Part shown: piece after piece, positions 8,664 to 41,293 of the stretch | How the letters are laid out: every line of letters begins with the position of its first letter | How positions within the stretch are numbered: position 1 is the stretch's first letter | NCBI GenBank assembly: GCA_023647555.1 | Contig: JALRLY010000241.1 | Span: 1-41,598 of the forward strand | DNA length: 41,598 nt | Direction of reading: 5' to 3' | Source: Pancytospora philotis | Lineage: Eukaryota; Microsporidia | Translations under genes and position numbers: made by a program | Notes under the pieces: generated by a model | What the model saw: only the letters and a program-made list of their open reading frames with translations | Told to the model about the DNA's origin: nothing | Databases searched by the model: none

Positions 8664-9866
8664 ATGAGCGAGTTTGCCGTCGAGGGTCTGCTGCTGAAGG
8701 AGAAGGACGCGGCGCTGCGCATGGGCGAGGAGGGCGTCGGGCTCAGGGTCGGCGGCGAGAAGATCGCGCTTCTGAAGGAGGACATAAAGACGGTGGAGGT
8801 TTTCCGCGCGACCCGCGGCTTCTGCCTGCGCGTCAGCACCGCCGAGGCCACGTACGATCTGCTCAATCTGCACGAGTCGATGATCAGCCGCCTCAGGACG
8901 GCGTGCGCGCAGCTCTACGGCATAACGCTGGCCGTCACTGAGCTGGAGACGCTCGACACCGTGCACGGCGATCTGCTCTACGCGAACGGCGTCGTGACGC
9001 TGCAGGGCGCGCGCCCGGTGTTCTCCATCCCCAAGGAGGCGATCGGCAACATTGTGGAGCTGAAGGACGAGCTCGAGTTCCACCTCGGCGACACTGAGAT
9101 CGTCTTCCACACGACCAGCAACGTGTCGCAGCTGCTCGGCAACAAGCTCTCGGAGGTGGCGTGCGTCGTGAACGACATCAACTGCCTGCATCCGCGCTCC
9201 AAGTCCACGCTCATCTTCTACGACAGCCACTTCGTGCTGAAGGGCTCGTCCTACGACCACCCCGTGCTCTACAGCGACGTGGAGGAGATGCAGTTCCTGC
9301 GGCGGGACACGCAGCACTACCTCGTGACGCGGCTTGCCACGCCCGTGGTGCAGGGGCAGACGCGCTACGAGGCGCTGGTGTTCCTGGTGGGCGACCGCGA
9401 GATCGACGTTGCGGCGGCCGACCCGCGCCTCAAGCCGTTCTACTCCGGCGACCAGGCGGATGTGCTGCTGGACATCATGGAGGCGCTCATCAAGATCAAG
9501 GCGCAGGAGTCCATCACGTCTTTCCAGTGCACGAGCAAGGTCTTCGAGGGCCACCTCTTCTGCCTGCCGAGCGCGCTGCAGTTCCTGCCGAAGTCGCTCA
9601 CGATCCCGCTCTCCGAGATTTCCTACGTCGAGTTCTCCCGGATCAACCTGAGTCTGGCGCAGGCCAAGACCTTCGATCTCACGGTGTTTGCCGGGAAGGT
9701 CCACTACTTCAAGGGGATCCACAAGGACAAGTTCAACGATCTCGAGCTGTACTTCAACGACAACGGGATCAAGATGGTCTCGGAGGTCATAGAGGAGAGC
9801 GAGTCGTACTCGCACGGCGACAGCTCTGGCTCTGATCTCTCCAACATCATCGACAGCGACGAGTAA
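8664..9866 (+). CDS. POB3: FACT complex subunit POB3 (SSRP1-like)
   Basis: A 400-residue homologue of the FACT histone chaperone subunit that, with SPT16, loosens and restores nucleosomes during transcription and replication. The N-terminal dimerisation/PH region is followed by the SSRP1-type PH pair: EAIGNIVELKDELEFHLGD near residues 130-150, and in the second PH domain the typical F.G.L..LPSALQFLPKSL and ISYVEFSR strings near 290-330. It ends with a short acidic serine tail (SSGSDLSNIIDSDE). There is no HMG box, as in yeast Pob3. Codons are strongly G/C-ending. Start at the AAAATTTCCCCC motif. Confidence 0.9.
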   Translation: MSEFAVEGLLLKEKDAALRMGEEGVGLRVGGEKIALLKEDIKTVEVFRATRGFCLRVSTAEATYDLLNLHESMISRLRTACAQLYGITLAVTELETLDTVHGDLLYANGVVTLQGARPVFSIPKEAIGNIVELKDELEFHLGDTEIVFHTTSNVSQLLGNKLSEVACVVNDINCLHPRSKSTLIFYDSHFVLKGSSYDHPVLYSDVEEMQFLRRDTQHYLVTRLATPVVQGQTRYEALVFLVGDREIDVAAADPRLKPFYSGDQADVLLDIMEALIKIKAQESITSFQCTSKVFEGHLFCLPSALQFLPKSLTIPLSEISYVEFSRINLSLAQAKTFDLTVFAGKVHYFKGIHKDKFNDLELYFNDNGIKMVSEVIEESESYSHGDSSGSDLSNIIDSDE

Positions 9867-29703: not shown

Positions 29704-31275
29704 ATGTGCGGGATTTTTTGGTCCGCGGGCGGCAGCTGCAGCCCGGCGCTGGCGGAGATGCTCAGACGCAGGGGCCCCGACTGCTACAAGGAGACACATT
29801 TCGAGGGCGTGTTCGCAGCCTCCAGCGTGCTGTGCATAAGGGGGTCCGTCCCGCAGCCGGTGGTGGGAGACGGCTACCTCCTCCAGTACAACGGCGAGGT
29901 ATACAACGGGAGCAGCAGCGATACCGAGTACATCAGAGGCATTATTGATGGCATTATCAGCGCAGAAACTAGCTGCTTGTCTAGCGGCGCGCTGCTCAGC
30001 ACGTACGATTCTGGGGAAACATCGAAATCACGAACAGATGAGCAGAATCTCCCCAGCGAAGGCGACTTCAGCTTTGCTGTCCGCCTGTACACCGAAATCA
30101 ACAAGTCGGAGAACGAGCTGGCGCTATCGGTCATTCGTGGAGGCAAGGCCTACTTCTTCAAGGACGATGTGGGCCGGAGGAGCCTTGGCATCACACGCGC
30201 CCCGTTTGGGCTCTCGTCGGTGTGCTACGAGGAGGAGCTCGATCCGATGAAGCTGTACGTGTACGACTTTGCGAGTGGCCAGCTCGCCTCAGCTTTCAAG
30301 CCGCGGTTCGGCGTTGTCGGCGCGTATCTGCAGCGCTTCGGTTCGATCGGCCCGTTCCTCTTCTCCGACAGGCACAGAGATGCGTACCGGTACATGACCG
30401 GGTACGGGGAGCTGTGCTGCGGTATTGGTAGCAGCGGGGCTGGCATGCAGAATCAGCAGAGTTGCAGCAGCACCATCGCGGCCTTTGATGCCGAGATAGG
30501 CAGGGCGGTGAGGACGCGGCTCCCCGAGGGCGATGTGGTTGTATTCTTCAGCGGCGGGATCGACTCGGTGCTGGTCGCGCTGCAGGCCCACCTAAATGCG
30601 CCTCCGCACTCCGTCATACACCTGGTGAACACGTGCTTCGCCGATTCCTTCGACCGGGCGGCGGGGGTAACTGCTCATCGAGAGCTCCAGAGCAAGTTTC
30701 CGGCGCGCAGATTCAACTTCATCGAGAACGACCTGAGCGTGGCGCGGATCAGGGAGCACAGGGCCGCTATCGCAGCGCTCGTGGCACCTAAAGTCAGCAC
30801 CATGGACCTCAACATCGGCATTATTCTGTACTTCAGTGCGATGGAGGCCAGCAGGTACGGCAAAGTCGCGCTGCTCGGGTCGGGCGCAGACGAAGTCTTC
30901 GGCGGATACAGCAAATACAGCAGAGAGTGCGCAGAGGCGAGCAGCACTAAAAATGGCGCGGAGTTCCGCCGCCACATGCTCTTCGATCTCTTCACCGTCT
31001 CCATGCACAACATATGCAGGGACGATCGCGTGATTGCGCACTGGGGCGTGGAGGCGCGCTTTGCCTTCCTGGACACCGATGTCATACAGAAGAGCCTCCT
31101 GCTCGCCGATGACGCCTTTATCAGCGGCGGCGAGAACAAGCACCTGCTGCGCGCGATCCTGCGGAGCCACGGCTTGGTGGAGACCGCGGGCTGCCTGAAG
31201 AAGGCCATGCAGTACGGCTCGGCGCTGCACAGGCACGAAAAGCTGATCTTTGGAGATGCTGAGCAGGCCGTATAA
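29704..31275 (+). CDS. ASNSD1-type glutamine amidotransferase/asparagine synthetase-like protein
   Basis: A 523-residue protein with an N-terminal class II glutamine amidotransferase domain whose nucleophile is Cys2 (MCGIFWSAGG), followed by RRRGPD and YNGEVYNG. The C-terminal synthetase-like domain has the PP-loop SGGIDS at 283-288. A GSGADEVFGGYSKYSR motif, RDDRVIAHWGVEARFAFLD and KKAMQYGSAL follow and match ASNSD1 (yeast YML096W group) better than true asparagine synthetase. The start must be 29704 because processing exposes Cys2; the ATG at 29692 would mask it. AAAATTTGC lies upstream. The exact reaction of this subfamily is not settled; amide transfer is inferred from intact catalytic motifs. 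Confidence 0.85.
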   Translation: MCGIFWSAGGSCSPALAEMLRRRGPDCYKETHFEGVFAASSVLCIRGSVPQPVVGDGYLLQYNGEVYNGSSSDTEYIRGIIDGIISAETSCLSSGALLSTYDSGETSKSRTDEQNLPSEGDFSFAVRLYTEINKSENELALSVIRGGKAYFFKDDVGRRSLGITRAPFGLSSVCYEEELDPMKLYVYDFASGQLASAFKPRFGVVGAYLQRFGSIGPFLFSDRHRDAYRYMTGYGELCCGIGSSGAGMQNQQSCSSTIAAFDAEIGRAVRTRLPEGDVVVFFSGGIDSVLVALQAHLNAPPHSVIHLVNTCFADSFDRAAGVTAHRELQSKFPARRFNFIENDLSVARIREHRAAIAALVAPKVSTMDLNIGIILYFSAMEASRYGKVALLGSGADEVFGGYSKYSRECAEASSTKNGAEFRRHMLFDLFTVSMHNICRDDRVIAHWGVEARFAFLDTDVIQKSLLLADDAFISGGENKHLLRAILRSHGLVETAGCLKKAMQYGSALHRHEKLIFGDAEQAV

Positions 31276-31383: not shown

Positions 31384-32679
31384 TCACATCAGTTTGCTGT
31401 TCAGCTCATCCAGGGCGTCTGAGATTTTGCTGTTGTAAGCTTTGGCCGCATCGGGCTGCACAATCTTGACGTAGATGAACCCGCGGATGGCCGATGTAAT
31501 CGTCGAGACCATGGCGTGGAATAACGAAACGGAGGATACAGTGCAGAGCATGACTAAAACGGTCTCGCAGGAGTCCTCGTGTCCTATAACAGCAGAACTC
31601 ATTAAAAACGACAAAACTGCAAACACTATCTCCAGGGGGTACAGGGCGTAGTCAAAGGCATCGAATGCGACGAGGCTTTTGTAGTTTGAAGCGTTAACGA
31701 GAGCGGCAGACTCGCTGAGTGCTTTGGTGTAGCAGATGTTGTGCGTAGCAAAGTATGGCAGGAGCATGTTATTCAAGGGCTCGACAACTGATATGCAGAG
31801 CCAGCGGAGAGGCGCAGTAAGTGCCCGAAGAGCGCGTAGTAGGTACCCCTCGCTGCGCCCACCACTAATATCCGGATTTGACTCGACCATCTTAACGTCC
31901 AGGAGCTTGAGGGGCCACGCAATGCCGCGCAGAAGGGCCGCGAAGCAGATGGCCCCCTGACTTGCAGGGAGACTCTTAAGACTCTTCCAGAATATCAAAT
32001 AGCCGGCACTTTGCTGTTGGCTGATGCAGTTGATGGCAGTATAGATACACGAGGCCTGGTGAATGTAGCCCATAGTACCGCACAGATGATAGATAATGAA
32101 AAGCATCGACACGCAAGCTAAGCGGCCACAGCCTAAGTAGTGGAAGCAAATACAAAACAGCATAGCATGCGCCATAGCTACAAAAATGTAAAGGAGACAA
32201 ATGCCGAAGAACCGCAGTACAAAACCTGCGACAGCGGAAGCAGCAGCATTTAGAATTAGCGCGACGCAATCTAAGTGGGGCTTAATGGCGAAGTAGTACA
32301 GAGTGCCCGTTACCACGGTTGACGCAAACCAGATCGCGGATCCGATGGCAAGGTCGTGATAGCACAGCAGCAGCGGAGCAATACAGGAGCCCACCAGACC
32401 AACGCGGATGCAAGCACGCGGGCAGTGCATGAGAGTCACGAAAAGGAGCAGCGATGCACCGGTGTACAGCAAATAATAGCATATCAGATGGGAAGGAAAG
32501 CTCCTATATATGGATAAACTTGAATATAGTACCTTAGACCATATAGAGTAGTTTTTATGAGTAATCCATAGAGCATATAAATAAAAGCCAAATATACTAC
32601 CGAGCAACAGCGATGTCGCCCAGACATCGTATCTTTTTTTATGATCTTTGGTCTCCGAGCGCTCAGCAGGCTGCTCCAT
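31384..32679 (-). CDS. Polytopic membrane protein, SLC44/CTL-like, copy 1
   Basis: A 431-residue protein with roughly nine to eleven hydrophobic helices. The pattern in the C-terminal half (ICFAALLRGIAWPLKLL, then VVEPLNNMLLPYFATHNICYTKALSESAALV, then a final helix) resembles the conserved SLC44/Pns1 choline-transporter-like region, but identity is low and I call it tentatively. Start at 32679, where AAAAATTCGCACCC precedes the ATG; the frame extends to 32742. The cytosolic N-terminus (MEQPAERSETKDHKKRYDVW) is shared with the tandem copy at 33158. A host-derived small-molecule transporter would fit a parasite, but no substrate can be read. Confidence 0.6.
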   Translation of the reverse strand: MEQPAERSETKDHKKRYDVWATSLLLGSIFGFYLYALWITHKNYSIWSKVLYSSLSIYRSFPSHLICYYLLYTGASLLLFVTLMHCPRACIRVGLVGSCIAPLLLCYHDLAIGSAIWFASTVVTGTLYYFAIKPHLDCVALILNAAASAVAGFVLRFFGICLLYIFVAMAHAMLFCICFHYLGCGRLACVSMLFIIYHLCGTMGYIHQASCIYTAINCISQQQSAGYLIFWKSLKSLPASQGAICFAALLRGIAWPLKLLDVKMVESNPDISGGRSEGYLLRALRALTAPLRWLCISVVEPLNNMLLPYFATHNICYTKALSESAALVNASNYKSLVAFDAFDYALYPLEIVFAVLSFLMSSAVIGHEDSCETVLVMLCTVSSVSLFHAMVSTITSAIRGFIYVKIVQPDAAKAYNSKISDALDELNSKLM

Positions 32680-33157
32680 GGGTGCGAATTTTTGGAATTT
32701 TAAAAATCGTAAAGGGGAAGGGGGCGTCTTTGCGCGCAGCATTCGGGGTCATTTGCAGGATAGAGAATGGCCCCAAGAGGAGTATCATAGAATTACTATT
32801 GCAATAGCAAAATTGGATAGAAGCTGAACGCTTGACAGACTCATGGTAAGAAATGGCTTGTGATTGATCTGGCTATGCCATTTTTGGTCAGACTAGTTTG
32901 CGCCAAGTTAGTTCTGAAATGACCAATGAAAGCTTATTCTTAATTGAATGTATCTCCTTTATCCGTCGGGCACCACTTTGCAATCTGAATCGCAGATGAT
33001 ACTGTCTATAGCCATACAGATCTGCTGCTGTCCCTCGAGTAACAATCGGTGGGAGCTAGCTGGGCATTTCTGTTAAGAATGCTACAAAGTATTGAACACT
33101 ATGTTTGGGCACAGGTATGATTTATTGAGCTGACAAGTTATAAGGTCTTTCAAATAT
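32680..33157. other. 478-bp spacer
   Basis: A/T-rich spacer between the two tandem membrane-protein genes. It contains the start motif of the downstream copy at its edge (32686-32702). Nothing else recognised. Confidence 0.5.
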
Positions 33158-34456
33158 TTACATGCGTTTGTTGATCTGCGCCTCTAGAGCGTCTGAGATT
33201 TTGCTGTTGTAAAGCCCGAGCGCATCGGGATACTCAAGCTTGGCGTAGATGAGCCCGCGCGCAGTCGCAGTGATCGCAGAAGCCATGCCGTGGAATATGG
33301 CGGTGGAGAATATGGTGGAAAGCGCGACCCAAAGAGCTTTGTAGGAGTTATCATGCCCTATCGTTGTGGAATTCACGTAGAATGACACAACCGCAAATGC
33401 ATACTCCAGGGGGTACAGGGCGTAGTCGAAGGCAGTAAGTGCGGCGAAGCTTTTGTACTTCGAAGCGGCCACAAGAGCGGCAGACTCGCTGAGCGCCCTG
33501 GTGTAGCAGACGTGGTGTGTAGCAACGTAGGGAAGGAGCATGTTGTTCGTGGGCTCGACAACTGAAACGCACAGCCAATGCAGAGGCGCGGCAACCGCCC
33601 GAAATGCGCGTAATAGATATTCTATGCTGCGCCCATTGCTGATATGAGAACTTGGCTCGGGCATCTTAAAGCTCAAGAGCTTGAGGGGCCACACAACGCC
33701 GCGCAGAAGCGCCGCGAGGCATACAGTCCCCAAAGATGCACGAACAGCGCTAAGACTTTTCCAGATCGTAGCAAAGCTAATTTTGTGCTGCTGGCTGATG
33801 ATGCAGTCGACGACAGTGCGGACGGACAGTACCTGGAGAAAGTAGTTCATAGCGCCGCACAGATGATAGACAGTAAAAAGCATCGATACATGGGCCAGCC
33901 AGCCACCGCCCAGGTAGTGTACACAAAGACAAGCCATCCTGGTATATGCAAGGGCGCCAAGAACAAGGAAAAGGAAAATGCCGATGAGGCGCAGTACAAA
34001 GCCAGCGGCGGCAGATGCGGCGGTGCTCAAAATCAGCTCGATGAGATCTAGGTGAGGCCTGATAGCGTAGAAGTAGGCAGCGCTCGTTACCACGATTGAT
34101 GCAAACCAGATCGCGGCCCCAGTGGCAACGTCGAAATAGCACAGCAGCAGCGGCGCAATGCAGGAGCCCAGTAGGCCGACGCGAATGCACGCGCGCGGAC
34201 AGAATATAAGGGCCACAAAGAGGAACAGTGACGCACCAGAGCACAGCAAATAATAGCGGACCAGGTGGGGGACGAAGCTCTTAGTCGCGGTTCTCTCTAA
34301 ATTAGATACTTTGGACCATATGGAGTGGTGGTTATAGGCAATCAACAGAGCGCACAAATGGAAACCGATTATACTGCTATACAGCAACACCAACGCCCAA
34401 ATATCGAATTCTTTCCCGCAACCCTCGGTCTCCGAGCGCTCGCCAGGCTGCCCCAT
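33158..34456 (-). CDS. Polytopic membrane protein, SLC44/CTL-like, copy 2
   Basis: A 432-residue tandem paralogue of the gene at 31384, colinear over its whole length. Closest segments are the N-terminus (GQPGERSETEG), SGASLFLFVALIFCPRACIRVGLLGSCIAPLLLC (within the membrane region) and LLPYVATHHVCYTRALSESAALV. Codons are somewhat richer in G/C than in copy 1. AAAAATTACCGCCC precedes the ATG at 34456; the frame extends to 34477. Assignment to the SLC44 group is tentative, as for copy 1. Two copies in tandem suggest selection for dosage or diverged substrate use. Confidence 0.6.
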   Translation of the reverse strand: MGQPGERSETEGCGKEFDIWALVLLYSSIIGFHLCALLIAYNHHSIWSKVSNLERTATKSFVPHLVRYYLLCSGASLFLFVALIFCPRACIRVGLLGSCIAPLLLCYFDVATGAAIWFASIVVTSAAYFYAIRPHLDLIELILSTAASAAAGFVLRLIGIFLFLVLGALAYTRMACLCVHYLGGGWLAHVSMLFTVYHLCGAMNYFLQVLSVRTVVDCIISQQHKISFATIWKSLSAVRASLGTVCLAALLRGVVWPLKLLSFKMPEPSSHISNGRSIEYLLRAFRAVAAPLHWLCVSVVEPTNNMLLPYVATHHVCYTRALSESAALVAASKYKSFAALTAFDYALYPLEYAFAVVSFYVNSTTIGHDNSYKALWVALSTIFSTAIFHGMASAITATARGLIYAKLEYPDALGLYNSKISDALEAQINKRM

Positions 34457-35040: not shown

Positions 35041-35078
35041 CAAAATTTTCAATAAAATCGTTGCGCGGTCTTACCCCT
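35041..35078. promoter_or_regulatory. 38-bp divergent promoter centred on AAAATTTT
   Basis: The palindrome AAAATTTT (35042-35049) lies between the start codons at 35040 (minus) and 35079 (plus). A C-run (ACCCCT) precedes the plus-strand ATG. Confidence 0.45.
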
Positions 35079-35828
35079 ATGAATCCCGCTGATCAGAAGA
35101 CTAACGCGAAGCTCGACGAGAACCAGATTTTCGCGCAGCTCACGTTCAGCGGCGCGCCCGGCGAGGACGCGGCGAGCTTCTACCAGGACTTCATCACGTA
35201 CTGCAACATGGAGAAGCTGAAGCACGACGAGCTGGCCTTCCGGCTGCGGCTCATGTTAAAGGGGCCGGCGCTGACGTGGCTGCGCTCGCTCGGCGACTTG
35301 GCGAACTCCAGGGAGATACTCGCGGCGTTCCAGGAGCGCTTCCTGCGCAAGAACACGCTGTTCTCAGTCGTGTACGAGCTGTGCTGCGGCGTGCAGGAGG
35401 AGGGCGAGCCCGTGCTCGAGTTCCTCGACCGCATGAAGAGCATTGCGGTCAAGATCAACCTCTCGGACGACGTGCTCGTGCCCATCGTGCTGCGCGCGCT
35501 CCCCGACAACATCTCCGAGCCCACGATCCTCTTCTCCAAGGGGAACAGCATCTCGTGGGCGGAGCTGTACGACCGCTGCAAGACTTGGGATCTCTTCTTC
35601 ATGCACAAGTCCAAGGGCCGGCTGGGTGCTGCGGTGCCGCTTATGTGCACGCTCTGCAACCAGAAGGGCCACTCCGCAAAAGACTGCGGCCAAGCTGAGC
35701 AGCCCAAGGAGCCCGCTGCAGAGGATCTCCACGAGGGGAGCAGCTCGCCCGCCCAATCTGCCGCCGCTTCGCAGCAGCCGCCTCCGTACAACCAGCATCC
35801 GTCGGCTGGCCACATGAATTACTTCTAA
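35079..35828 (+). CDS. Stand-alone Gag-like protein with CCHC zinc knuckle
   Basis: A 249-residue protein with a Ty3/gypsy-type Gag capsid domain (about residues 30-160): FYQDFITYCNMEKLKHDELA, LMLKGPALTWLRSL, AAFQERFLRK, EPVLEFLDRMKSIA and LRALPDNI follow the Retrotrans_gag pattern. A perfect zinc knuckle CTLCNQKGHSAKDC lies at 190-203. The tail is Pro/Gln/Ala-rich and ends HMNYF. No protease, reverse transcriptase, integrase or LTR is visible in the flanks. Strong G/C-ending codon use like POB3 and an AAAATTTT promoter argue for a resident, expressed gene rather than a recent insert. The frame is open from a TTG at 35061; 35079 is the first ATG. A domesticated capsid-forming or RNA-binding role is inferred. 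Confidence 0.85.
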   Translation: MNPADQKTNAKLDENQIFAQLTFSGAPGEDAASFYQDFITYCNMEKLKHDELAFRLRLMLKGPALTWLRSLGDLANSREILAAFQERFLRKNTLFSVVYELCCGVQEEGEPVLEFLDRMKSIAVKINLSDDVLVPIVLRALPDNISEPTILFSKGNSISWAELYDRCKTWDLFFMHKSKGRLGAAVPLMCTLCNQKGHSAKDCGQAEQPKEPAAEDLHEGSSSPAQSAAASQQPPPYNQHPSAGHMNYF

Positions 35829-36191
35829 CGGGTTTTGCTATAGAGGGCTGCTGCCCGACTCAGCTTTAATAAATACATAATATCTTGCATTTGGTTATCG
35901 GGGCTGGATGATGAGAAAGCGCGTCTGTGTAAACTGTGCGCCTATGTGTCCAAACAGTAGCATTCGGCAACAACTGCTGGCTCAGCCAGTTCAGACTGAA
36001 ATGGTGACTTTTCCATCCCTTTCTACGGCAGTCTAGATACAGCCTTTAGATTGGTAGGCATGAGAGTATGCGGTATTTGTGTCATTTGAATCAATCCGCT
36101 AGAATCGGTGCTACAAAATACTCCAACAATTTTACTTTATATCCGCAGCTTGGTATCTTTACGCATTAGAATAGTGCCAGAAAAACTCCTT
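35829..36191. other. 363-bp spacer
   Basis: Searched for retroelement remnants downstream of the Gag-like gene: no pol-like frame, LTR ends or poly-purine tract seen. TTTAATAAATAC at about 35866 may be the 3' end signal. Confidence 0.5.
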
Positions 36192-36753: not shown

Positions 36754-37314
36754 TTATTCTTCTTTCATCTTCTTCGCTCCAGTCTGGGCCGCCGCGGGTG
36801 ATCCACGTGCAAAAAAGGGGAAATTAAAGGGGGCGCTCATGCCCTTAGTAAACGGCCTTTCGGCCGGAAGGCCGTACAGATGCGTCCGGTAGACCTGGCT
36901 CGTCAGCAGGCTGCTCAGCAGATTGGAAACGAAATAGTCCATGTAGTACTGCGTCGAGTAGGTATTAACTGTGAATGCGACCATGGCGATCTGCGTGTAT
37001 ACAAGTTGCATATGCTTGTCGTTCTCCATGCGGTCGTATTCGCACACTGTGCCGTTGAATGTGTAGCTCTTGCAGCCCGCGAAGATTGATTTCGTTGCCG
37101 CACACTCAAGACGTGTCTGATCGTTCTTCGAGTCTATCTGCCCCCGGATGTAGTAAGCGATGCCGAACCGCACGACTAAAGACAGCACAATCAGAGTCCA
37201 AGTAAGGGCGACATGGGCCGTGGGCCAGAAGCGGAGAAAGTTCATAAAGAAGTCGAGTATGAAGAAGCACGCAATCTGTATTCCGATGCTTACTGCTTTG
37301 AACGACACAGCCAT
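36754..37314 (-). CDS. PHO88/SND3 family protein, copy A
   Basis: A 186-residue ER membrane protein of the PHO88/SND3 group, a component of the SRP-independent targeting route. An N-terminal hydrophobic pair is followed by the family anchor YYIRGQIDSKNDQT, then a VCEYDR segment (the DYD of Pho88), a second membrane region and QVYRTHLYGLPAERPF. The C-terminus is APFNFPFF plus a Lys-rich tail. It is closer to copy B than to copy C. AAAAATCTCACCC precedes the ATG. The stop overlaps AATAAA. Confidence 0.75.
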   Translation of the reverse strand: MAVSFKAVSIGIQIACFFILDFFMNFLRFWPTAHVALTWTLIVLSLVVRFGIAYYIRGQIDSKNDQTRLECAATKSIFAGCKSYTFNGTVCEYDRMENDKHMQLVYTQIAMVAFTVNTYSTQYYMDYFVSNLLSSLLTSQVYRTHLYGLPAERPFTKGMSAPFNFPFFARGSPAAAQTGAKKMKEE

Positions 37315-38182: not shown

Positions 38183-38743
38183 TTATTCTTTCTTTATTTT
38201 CCTCGTTCCAGTCTGGGCCGCCACGGGTGCTCTGGGCACAAAAAAGGGGAAAGTAAAGGGGGCGCTATTGCTCATTTCGAACGGCCTATCGACCGGTAGA
38301 CCGTAAAGGTGCGCTCTGTAGACCGGGCTCGTTAGTAAGTTGCACAGCAGGTTAGAGGCATACAGTATACTGTAGCATTTCACTATGTTAGTATTACTTG
38401 AAAATAAGATGGTTACGAGCTGCGCATACACTTGGTGCATATACATGTCATTCTCTCTGCGATCGTATTCACACACCGTACCATCGAATATGTAGCTCTT
38501 CCAGCCCGCGAAGACTGATTTTGTCGCGTTGCACTTGAGATGCGTCTGATCGTTCTTCGTGTTTATTTGTCTCCGGATGTAGAAAGCGATACCAAAACGT
38601 GCGGCTAAAGACAGCAAAAATAGGGCCCAAGCAGCAATTATTTGGGCCGTGGGCCAGAAGCTGAGATAGTGCATGAGCACGCCGAGAATAATAAAGCTTG
38701 CAATTTGGGACACAGCACTTGCTGCTTGGAAAGAAATGGCCAT
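38183..38743 (-). CDS. PHO88/SND3 family protein, copy B
   Basis: A 186-residue paralogue of copy A, colinear and clearly the nearest relative: FYIRRQINTKNDQTHLKC, FAGWKSYIFDGTVCEYDRREND and PVYRAHLYGLPVDRPF correspond position by position. It keeps the N-terminal membrane pair and Lys-rich tail. Codons are more A/T-rich than in copy C. GGTAAAATTTTGCCCC directly precedes the ATG. The stop overlaps AATAAA. It is probably ER-localised by family; whether A and B retain targeting function is open. Confidence 0.75.
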   Translation of the reverse strand: MAISFQAASAVSQIASFIILGVLMHYLSFWPTAQIIAAWALFLLSLAARFGIAFYIRRQINTKNDQTHLKCNATKSVFAGWKSYIFDGTVCEYDRRENDMYMHQVYAQLVTILFSSNTNIVKCYSILYASNLLCNLLTSPVYRAHLYGLPVDRPFEMSNSAPFTFPFFVPRAPVAAQTGTRKIKKE

Positions 38744-40001: not shown

Positions 40002-40598
40002 TTAGACGGACTCGGAGAAGTCGATCGGCTCGAACATGATGCTCTTCGGCGGCCGGTAGTCCGCGTGGCTCTTGAACTTGAACAGCTCCTCGAGGAACTC
40101 GAAGCGCTGCTTCTTCCCGATCCGCTCGATGTTGCGGTTGTGGCACTCGAACTCGTGCAGCTTGTGCTTGGTGCCCACGAGCTCGTCCTTGGTCAGCACG
40201 TCCTTCGGCGGCCGGCAGCTGTGCAGGTACATGCAGTCGTTGTTCTGGCACGGCACGTTCTTGAGGTAGAAGCTGCAGTACTTCGTGGTCCCGTACGTGC
40301 AGCGCAGCACGCGCCCGTCGAGCAGGCTCTCGTCCACCTCCTGGATGCACCACTTCGCCTCGAACTGCGTGGTGTACGTGATGTACGCGCTCGCCGTGGA
40401 CTCGCCCGGGCGCGCGTCCGTGCGCCGATTGATGATGATCTTTTTGATCGCGCCGAACTGCCCGAAGAACTCGTGGCGGCGCAGCGTCGCCTCCTCCGCG
40501 AAGCGCTGCGGGATGCCTATGATATATACAAGTGTCTTCTGTATGACGCGGATGTTGTAGAAGTCGATGTATGCGCCTCCCTCGACCTCGCTGCCCAT
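40002..40598 (-). CDS. NOT4: NOT4/CNOT4-like RRM and zinc-finger protein lacking the RING
   Basis: A 198-residue protein matching the middle of NOT4, the CCR4-NOT subunit that works as an E3 ligase in co-translational quality control. IRVIQKTLVYIIGIPQRFA opens the RRM (about residues 15-110), with HEFFGQFGAIKKIIINRRT and SAYITY. The CCCH finger is KYCSFYLKNVPCQNNDCMYLH. LTKDELVGTKH follows as in NOT4. The N-terminal C4C4 RING is missing. AAAAATTGG and an upstream AAAAATTTT precede the ATG at 40598. The frame is open to 40877 with a helical Ala/Glu-rich extension, but that also has no RING. Confidence 0.85.
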   Translation of the reverse strand: MGSEVEGGAYIDFYNIRVIQKTLVYIIGIPQRFAEEATLRRHEFFGQFGAIKKIIINRRTDARPGESTASAYITYTTQFEAKWCIQEVDESLLDGRVLRCTYGTTKYCSFYLKNVPCQNNDCMYLHSCRPPKDVLTKDELVGTKHKLHEFECHNRNIERIGKKQRFEFLEELFKFKSHADYRPPKSIMFEPIDFSESV

Positions 40599-41293
40599 GG
40601 AGACCAATTTTTGCGTCAATATACGGAAGCGCCCTATTAAAATTTTTAAAAAGATTTGCGGCGCCGCTCGCGGCTTTCCGAGCTTCTGGGCGCGCTCTGC
40701 GGCATTTTCAGTGTGTGCAACAGCCGAGCTGGCTTCGTCTAACGCTGTTTTAATATTCTCCTCTGTGCGGGCTGCTGCGTTCATATTAAAGCGGCCAACA
40801 GGCAGCATACCGTTATTTTCGCCAGCGCATCGCATTTGCCTTGCGTGTCGATATGCTTCGTGTACAAAATCAGGCATATCGATACGCTTCTAGGCAGTTC
40901 ATTTTAATTCTTGCTTTACTCGGCTCGGCGCCATCACACGTGATATCTTAGCCCTATAAGGATGCAGAATGCACCTTCGGGTTGGAACAAACGTACTGAT
41001 AAAACGATCAGGATAAGAATGATCTGACGTGCAGTAATTTATTGCGGGTGCCAGAATTTGAGAGCCGCTTGGGCACGCTCAGGCACGGTGGCATGCCTTT
41101 TATAGCTACACGCCGATCAGTATTATGCTACAGAGTAGTGTCTGCAATTTACTACTAGTCCGCTGTTAACATCCCATGGTGCAAGCCTCTTGGGCTCCCC
41201 CGGCAGCTGCCCTTTTGTTCTAGGCACGGGGAGGCGCCGTGTCCTGCGCGGGCCGGATATACACGCGGCCAATAAAAATTTACCCAAGAAGTA
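40599..41293. other. 695-bp divergent spacer
   Basis: Lies between the NOT4-like gene and eIF1. It includes the open 93-codon extension of NOT4 (40599-40877), start motifs near 40604-40614 and 40639-40650, and AAAAATTTACCC at 41274-41285. No RNA gene or RING-encoding exon recognised. Confidence 0.5.
41274..41285 (+). promoter_or_regulatory. AAAAATTTACCC start motif of eIF1
   Basis: The A/T block is joined to a C-run 8 bp before the ATG at 41294, as in other core genes. Confidence 0.6.

Follow-up and report, generated by a model that had tools for sequence, protein, structure and literature searches.

Co-option of retrotransposon Gag proteins is best known in animals, where PEG10 retains a frameshifted part of pol. 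Most domesticated metaviral capsid genes of mammals are reported to be under purifying selection between species (PMC11011659), and RTL8 is reported to antagonise PEG10 virus-like particles (PMC11684626). Reported fungal cases include a Bel-Pao gag fused to PEX14 (PMC10799480) and Drt2, which derives from a Ty1' GAG domesticated in Saccharomyces cerevisiae and, like p22/p18, acts on particles in trans (PMC10951436); Drt2 and p22 are the yeast precedents for restriction (PMC10951436, PMC8458377). A 2024 screen of the fungal kingdom has a tree from which Microsporidia are missing according to the figure legend (PMC10799480). In Anncaliia algerae, domestication of a Pol polyprotein was suggested from a promoter signal (PMC4202319). 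Titles and starts of abstracts retrieved in literature searches contained no earlier microsporidian co-option of gag, and a broad survey, Wang and Han (2021), may include related cases. Here, a stand-alone gag gene, named C16, is described for Pancytospora philotis, which infects the nematode Oscheius tipulae (PMC5179134). The window (i.e. the whole stretch of DNA analysed, 41,598 nucleotides (nt)) is an entire contig, also labelled C16, of a genome of 3,680,843 bases in 83 contigs. C16 is probably a co-opted resident cellular gene derived from the gag of a Ty3/gypsy element. The gene, its parts and its flanks are located in the window as follows.

35079..35828, + strand: stand-alone gag gene C16, 249 amino acids (aa), ATG to TAA, called from the open reading frame (ORF), matches to Retrotrans_gag and the knuckle, homology to elements and codon tests.
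35142..35378, + strand: capsid N-lobe region, approximately aa 22-100, called from homology to element Gags, predicted local distance difference test (pLDDT) values and matches to Arc, dArc1 and Ty3 capsids.
35379..35600, + strand: capsid C-lobe region, approximately aa 101-174, from a low-confidence model, called from the Retrotrans_gag match at aa 59-141, alignment and pLDDT.
35646..35687, + strand: CCHC zinc knuckle CTLCNQKGHSAKDC, aa 190-203, called from Pfam zf-CCHC, the residue pattern and alignment to the knuckles of elements C29b and C62b.
35688..35825, + strand: low-complexity C-terminal tail, aa 204-249, with PPPY at aa 234-237.
35042..35078, + strand: 5' flank, with AAAATTTT at -37 to -30 and CCCC directly before the ATG.
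35868..35873, + strand: AATAAA, a candidate poly(A) signal, 39 nt past the stop codon of C16.

The predicted product of C16 is a Ty3/gypsy-type capsid with one CCHC knuckle, a homology that Gag-Pol ORFs elsewhere in this genome firmly establish. A genome-wide search with C16 matched the Gag-Pol ORFs C29b (E 2.1e-15) and C62b (E 1.3e-11), and C16 was alignable to element Gags across both lobes and the knuckle. Ty3 elements with a related Gag, for which a search had been proposed, are present; direct comparison showed C29b and C62b to be only ~26% identical to C16 through the knuckle. In a maximum-likelihood tree of 13 Gags of this genome, C16 grouped with C29b and C62b with a support of 94/91, just under the 95/80 mark; C79, whose Gag is identical to that of C35, was excluded from the tree and from the gag composition tests. 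By ancestry, C16 belongs with the gags of the C29b/C62b group. A preliminary description of this DNA had claimed a Gag-type capsid and a CX2CX4HX4C knuckle, and both were borne out by the homology to elements, by a three-row profile of C16 for which dArc1 was the best match in PDB (E 3.1e-6) and by the knuckle CTLCNQKGHSAKDC, which conforms to the pattern. The Pfam Retrotrans_gag profile matched aa 59-141 (E 1.4e-3) but scored 19.2 bits, under its curated cut-off of 24.1, and zf-CCHC scored 15.5 bits, under a cut-off of 20.8. Structure prediction from an alignment of just two sequences gave a low-confidence model (mean pLDDT 52.6; predicted template modelling score 0.34), for which retro-capsids, including those of Arc, dArc1 and Ty3, nevertheless accounted for all 50 matches listed. 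This model is reasonably confident only over aa 21-90, with pLDDT values by 10-residue block of 66-84 there, 48 for aa 91-100 and 34-62 in the C-lobe.

The main reason for calling C16 a resident gene is its codon usage. The host set consisted of the longest ORFs that do not overlap one another, a few of which may be spurious. GC content at third codon positions (GC3) was 0.884 in C16, exceeding 79 of 90 host ORFs (median 0.68), and GC content at the first two positions (GC12) was 0.49; GC3 was 0.40-0.66 in element ORFs (n = 11) and 0.45-0.63 in ten element gags. The three nearest neighbour ORFs (33158, 36192 and 36754) had GC3 values of 0.64, 0.70 and 0.68 and non-ORF DNA of the window had a GC content of 0.48, indicating that the high GC3 of C16 is not regional. 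Host-versus-element log-odds per codon were +0.261 for C16 and ranged from -0.209 to +0.008 for 11 elements left out singly, with 71% of 63 host ORFs above zero. Preferred codons were assessed with 21 high-GC3 host ORFs as the reference and 2000 GC3-matched recodings as the null. C16 scored 0.051 (host range -0.077 to 0.085) as compared to -0.097 +/- 0.033 for the recodings, none of which scored as high (0/2000), and four element gags gave no signal in this test. Nine of ten high-GC3 ORFs scanned carried a Pfam domain (e.g. primase, Sec23, RIO kinase, condensin, UTP14 and Pus10).

Additionally, the contrast between GC3 and GC12 was 0.39 in C16 and 0.01-0.16 in the ten element gags. Neutral decay was simulated from these gags in 800 runs, 200 at each of four equilibrium GC values, and never produced a contrast above 0.20. 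A GC3 of 0.88 was reached in 199 runs, all at an equilibrium GC of 0.9 and with GC12 then at 0.79 or more, and, at a GC of 0.48, the median number of substitution draws per site up to the first stop codon was 0.025. These results bear on whether C16 is an old relic in neutral decay from which stops are absent by chance. A single copy with no pol and no long terminal repeat (LTR) found would suit a relic, but simulated drift does not generate the contrast of C16, an early stop is expected and none is seen, and the knuckle ligands are intact, making a relic extremely improbable. The earlier claim of a core-gene codon bias is upheld by GC3, log-odds, contrast and preferred codons alike. Starting from an element of the resident type, C16 would have needed tens of third-position changes to host-preferred codons whilst keeping its frame. 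As far as sequence can tell, the codon evidence speaks for an expressed gene resident in the host, and against either a recent insertion or a dead relic. Contrast and preferred codons in this one genome point to selection having kept the coding function of C16, and selection on a host function would be the cause of its codon adaptation. The position-specific composition test offers a cheap means of separating host genes from element remnants where no relative has been sequenced.

The surroundings of C16 agree with the statement in the preliminary description that the gag stands alone, lacking pol, LTRs and flanking repeats. Searching with nine element ORFs (C29b in two parts) by tblastn detected no pol or other element sequence in the window apart from the gag of C16; weak pol remnants could be missed because the same search missed the known gag match of C62b. 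Near the three stand-alone gags of this genome, searches with the LTRs of six elements and with the 5' flanks of a further four gave no match better than chance (best E 0.065); a decayed LTR could be missed because the resident elements whose LTRs were located have very short ones (39-105 nt). No direct repeats of at least 16 nt flanked C16 between positions 31000 and 41000, a target-site duplication of a few bases being beyond the reach of the method. Nine families of direct repeats were present in this interval: eight map to, or next to, neighbouring ORFs that resemble one another, and the ninth (16 nt) falls within the ORF 40002-40877. The segment 34600-36200 occurs once in the genome, and multi-copy LTR elements carrying the same Gag, proposed earlier as a check, were not found there. 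All contigs of recorded length exceed 10 kb; shorter ones may therefore be absent from the assembly and might carry additional copies of elements. Published Pancytospora genomes are given as 4.2 and 4.6 Mb (PMC10393165). Unlike a live or non-autonomous LTR element, C16 has neither an LTR pair nor further copies, and, as in a domesticated gag, no protease, reverse transcriptase (RT), integrase or LTR was found at the locus. Pfam domains were assigned to 6 of ten neighbouring ORFs, all cellular (SUN, asparagine synthase, ABCE1-like ATPase, NUDIX, Pho88 and RRM), and to none of the other 4. Directly beside C16 lies a Pho88-like tandem pair (36754-37314 and 38183-38743) with 76-78% DNA identity over long blocks, and a second tandem pair beside it (31384-32742 and 33158-34456), of a family without a Pfam match, has 67-71% DNA identity. 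From these two pairs, the surroundings of C16 are a local duplication spot.

The promoter argument for co-option does not survive, the motif being common to host and element ORFs. An AAATTT-type motif within 60 nt of the ATG was present in 25/64 host ORFs and 5/9 element ORFs, and CCC within 12 nt in 25/64 and 7/9, respectively; C47 was excluded from this comparison as its flank reads N. Within -25, the AT motif was found in 19/64 host ORFs and in 2/9 element ORFs, as well as in C15 (-14) and C51 (-13), the other stand-alone gags, with C16 outside this range (-35) and its AAAATTTT occupying -37 to -30. Since element ORFs carry both the AT motif and CCC, the promoter motif was rejected as a sign of co-option. 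Promoter signals like those argued for Anncaliia algerae also occur in the element ORFs of this genome, and AATAAA-type hexamers were found downstream of 23/64 host ORFs and 6/9 element ORFs. The tail of C16 (aa 204-249) had no detectable match to element Pol. Its PPPY was set aside as a late (budding) domain: shuffling the tail yields the motif in 4% of cases, and a genome-wide search at E <= 0.1 detected no WW domain. That search could overlook a divergent WW, and its sensitivity is uncertain since it gave no match above the cut-off in control genomes. PPPY was present in 0/12 other Gag or Gag-Pol ORFs scanned, and the genome has one HECT domain.

Searches with C16, Retrotrans_gag, C15, C51 and two element Gags located at least 14 gag loci, a lower bound. 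Eleven are part of open frames 505-1276 aa long (Gag-Pol or its broken beginning), and the other 3 stand alone, their open frames measuring 257-266. A 55-aa frame at C54:40659-40721 (21 aa matched, over a 3' LTR) was excluded from this count. The two stand-alone gags other than C16 are the following.

C15:65550-66344, + strand: second stand-alone gag, C15, 264 aa, beside UTP14.
C51:17757-18356, - strand: third stand-alone gag, C51, 199 aa, beside Pus10.

C15 has a variant knuckle (CX2HX4HX4C) in common with element C49, and short tandem repeats of 33-nt units lie between its capsid and knuckle. C51 shares 47% identity with the Gag of element C71, and the knuckle pattern was not found in either protein. 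Unlike C16, C51 exceeds the Retrotrans_gag cut-off, at 25.8 bits; its other neighbour is an ORF resembling, by eye, a membrane transporter. Log-odds per codon were +0.107 for C51 and +0.099 for C15, and the GC3-GC12 contrasts were 0.32 and 0.22, C15 passing the simulated bound only narrowly. In the tree, C16, C15 and C51 occupied three places, and well-supported branches force at least three state changes. Each stand-alone gag is nearest to a different Ty3 element lineage, and three separate events would be the simplest reading of this tree; one gain and two losses are formally possible. Since microsporidia tend to shed what goes unused, it is notable that such a small eukaryotic genome has three solitary gags.

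The Ty3 relatives of C16 in this genome have been recently active, as shown by LTR pairs of 39-105 nt that were 98.7-100% identical in 6/10 element loci. Three of the other four stretches stop at a contig end and C49 gave no LTR pair. In the six short-LTR Ty3/gypsy elements (two in L045, and L044, L046, L043 and L038), the start codon of Gag-Pol lies inside the 5' LTR (6/6) and the ORF stops either in the 3' LTR or no more than 17 nt away; TGT...ACA ends were apparent in all four whose ends were read. The C35 and C79 contigs (L039 and L040) end inside element copies with identical Gag and at the same point of the polyprotein, probably owing to an assembly break in a repeat. Fragments resembling, by eye, Tc1/mariner and Merlin DNA transposases (L002:457-1268 and L003:628-1014, both on the - strand) lie upstream of the C29b and C62b elements. 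An intact long Gag-Pol frame is missing from several RT or integrase loci of the genome, as might be expected if C16 were a helper gene supplying Gag in trans to defective elements and serving these rather than the host. The codon use of C16, however, is host-like and unlike that of the tested elements, and C16 is far from all element Gags found; a helper role is considered very unlikely.

Several observations weigh against co-option, and in particular against an ancient one. At E <= 1, C16 retrieved only itself from 512 candidates drawn from 5.8 billion proteins (a cluster of one member on one contig), and the one further match of a profile search at E <= 0.01 was PAPHI01_2607, the Gag of a P. 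philotis element, encoded on a 5.6-kb contig and 91% identical over 163 aa to the Gag of C29b. By contrast, SSRP1 (window 8664-9866) had P. epiphaga (60%) as its closest named relative in the same database, followed by Vittaforma corneae (53%) and Glugoides intestinalis (52%), with 39 proteins listed at E <= 1e-10, the query included and many of microsporidian kind; the only SSRP1 of P. philotis listed was that of the window. Given that the database covers P. epiphaga along with further microsporidia, a well conserved orthologue of C16 would probably have been visible. That none was detected tells against deep co-option, a lack of orthologues in sister species having been named at the outset as a refutation. 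In the preferred-codon test, moreover, 39/2000 recodings of C51 (suggestive) and 185/2000 of C15 (not significant) scored as high as the native genes. A fast-evolving orthologue can be missed because the search needs shared 5-residue words, and the P. epiphaga assembly may be fragmented since its SSRP1 is on a 3.1-kb contig. The missing orthologue reflects either a recent co-option in a single species or fast evolution of the kind that restriction factors can show. In viral contigs, 66 stretches matched a pattern and none was a relative by tblastn.

Comparison with the elements gave synonymous (dS) and nonsynonymous (dN) distances, by the method of Nei and Gojobori (NG86), of 2.55 and 1.00 for C16-C29b, 3.67 and 0.97 for C16-C62b, 2.53 and 0.93 for C29b-C62b, 1.50 and 0.44 for C51-C71, and infinite and 0.77 for C15-C49. 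Synonymous sites are near or at saturation and hence no dN/dS could be given for the stand-alone branch. The amino-acid distance of C16 to C29b and C62b was similar to that between these two. A gag fragment newly inserted from an element of a GC3-rich donor genome, undecayed and without host function, would account for the failure to find an orthologue despite a sister species in the database, and horizontal exchange of microsporidian transposable elements has been reported (PMC4202319). Such a recent remnant is nonetheless unlikely: the codon choice of C16 matches the high-GC3 genes of this host beyond GC3 itself, no donor-like element was found in the genome or the database, and no LTR scar was found. 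The co-option proposed in the preliminary description retains the codon preference, the GC3/GC12 contrast and the lack of detectable LTRs, pol and copies in its favour; it is weakened by the failure to detect an orthologue, and its promoter argument falls away.

If C16 is a co-opted gene, its history may be outlined as follows. C16 would descend from a Ty3/gypsy gag of the C29b/C62b group whose protease-RT-integrase portion and LTRs were lost and whose capsid and RNA-binding knuckle were kept; it has a short tail of its own, and its codons have been adapted to those preferred by the host. In the preferred mechanism, the protein would oligomerise via its capsid lobes and bind RNA via its knuckle, and would act in trans on the virus-like particles of resident Ty3 elements, by co-assembly or by capture of element RNA. 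This action would lower Ty3 transposition, as yeast Drt2 and p22 do for Ty1-group elements. The chances that co-option was accompanied by a trans effect on elements, in a broad sense, are put at about even; restriction as the mechanism, supposing co-option and arguing by analogy with yeast, falls somewhat short of that. Three points count against restriction. An identity of only ~26% to the nearest elements makes direct co-assembly doubtful, and C16, unlike Drt2 and p22, has not lost the N-terminal domain of the capsid; its complete capsid with knuckle would suit self-assembly equally. A Piwi-domain ORF also suggests that element control may rest on RNA interference (RNAi). This Piwi-domain (Argonaute) ORF, at C31:43700-44608, fits the report that Pancytospora encodes RNAi proteins (PMC10393165).

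Alternatively, C16 could behave like Arc or PEG10, with capsid and knuckle working in cis: the protein would form its own RNA-containing particles and carry or store parasite mRNA, perhaps from the parasite to the host cytoplasm. A complete capsid and knuckle have been kept, dArc1 capsid structures were the best PDB matches, three retro-gag genes are kept separately, and the low identity to present elements (26%) together with the full capsid leaves room for such a role. Assembly, export and RNA cargo are, however, purely conjectural here, the budding-type PPPY turns up in 4% of tails after shuffling and the genome search for WW domains, of uncertain sensitivity, was negative, so that an Arc-like role is judged rather unlikely. 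A wider version, in which Pancytospora co-opted the Gags of at least three Ty3 lineages and RNA-filled capsids of C16 act beyond the cell that makes them (e.g. by taking parasite RNA into the nematode cell), is a long shot.

Co-option as a resident cellular gene, the favoured reading, would make C16 a further domesticated Ty3 gag, in a phylum for which titles and starts of abstracts gave no gag case. The Ty3/gypsy elements reported for microsporidia (PMC4202319) have the same kind of Gag as C16 within a single Gag-Pol polyprotein, and C29b and C62b have a CCHC knuckle; C16 differs from such elements in host codon use, in being single-copy and in having no protease, RT, integrase or LTR that could be found. 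PEG10 and RTL8 are Gag-derived like C16 and provide a model of one lone Gag acting on another, but are mammalian and of a different element lineage. Drt2 and p22 resemble C16 in being Gag-derived, stand-alone and encoded in a fungal genome with related elements, and the trans effect proposed for C16 has been demonstrated for them; both come from a Ty1-group Gag and comprise the C-terminal domain of the capsid only, whereas C16 is of the Ty3 type with both lobes and a knuckle. Like C16, Arc and dArc1 are stand-alone capsids of the Ty3 type at a single locus with no pol or LTR found, and they are its best PDB match by profile and fold. They differ in belonging to animals, a different phylum; particles and RNA transfer are properties of Arc, whilst C16 is known from sequence and its orthologues were not found. 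As C16 groups with elements of its own genome, in a tree of the Gags of this genome only and without Arc, an event independent of that which gave rise to Arc is likely.
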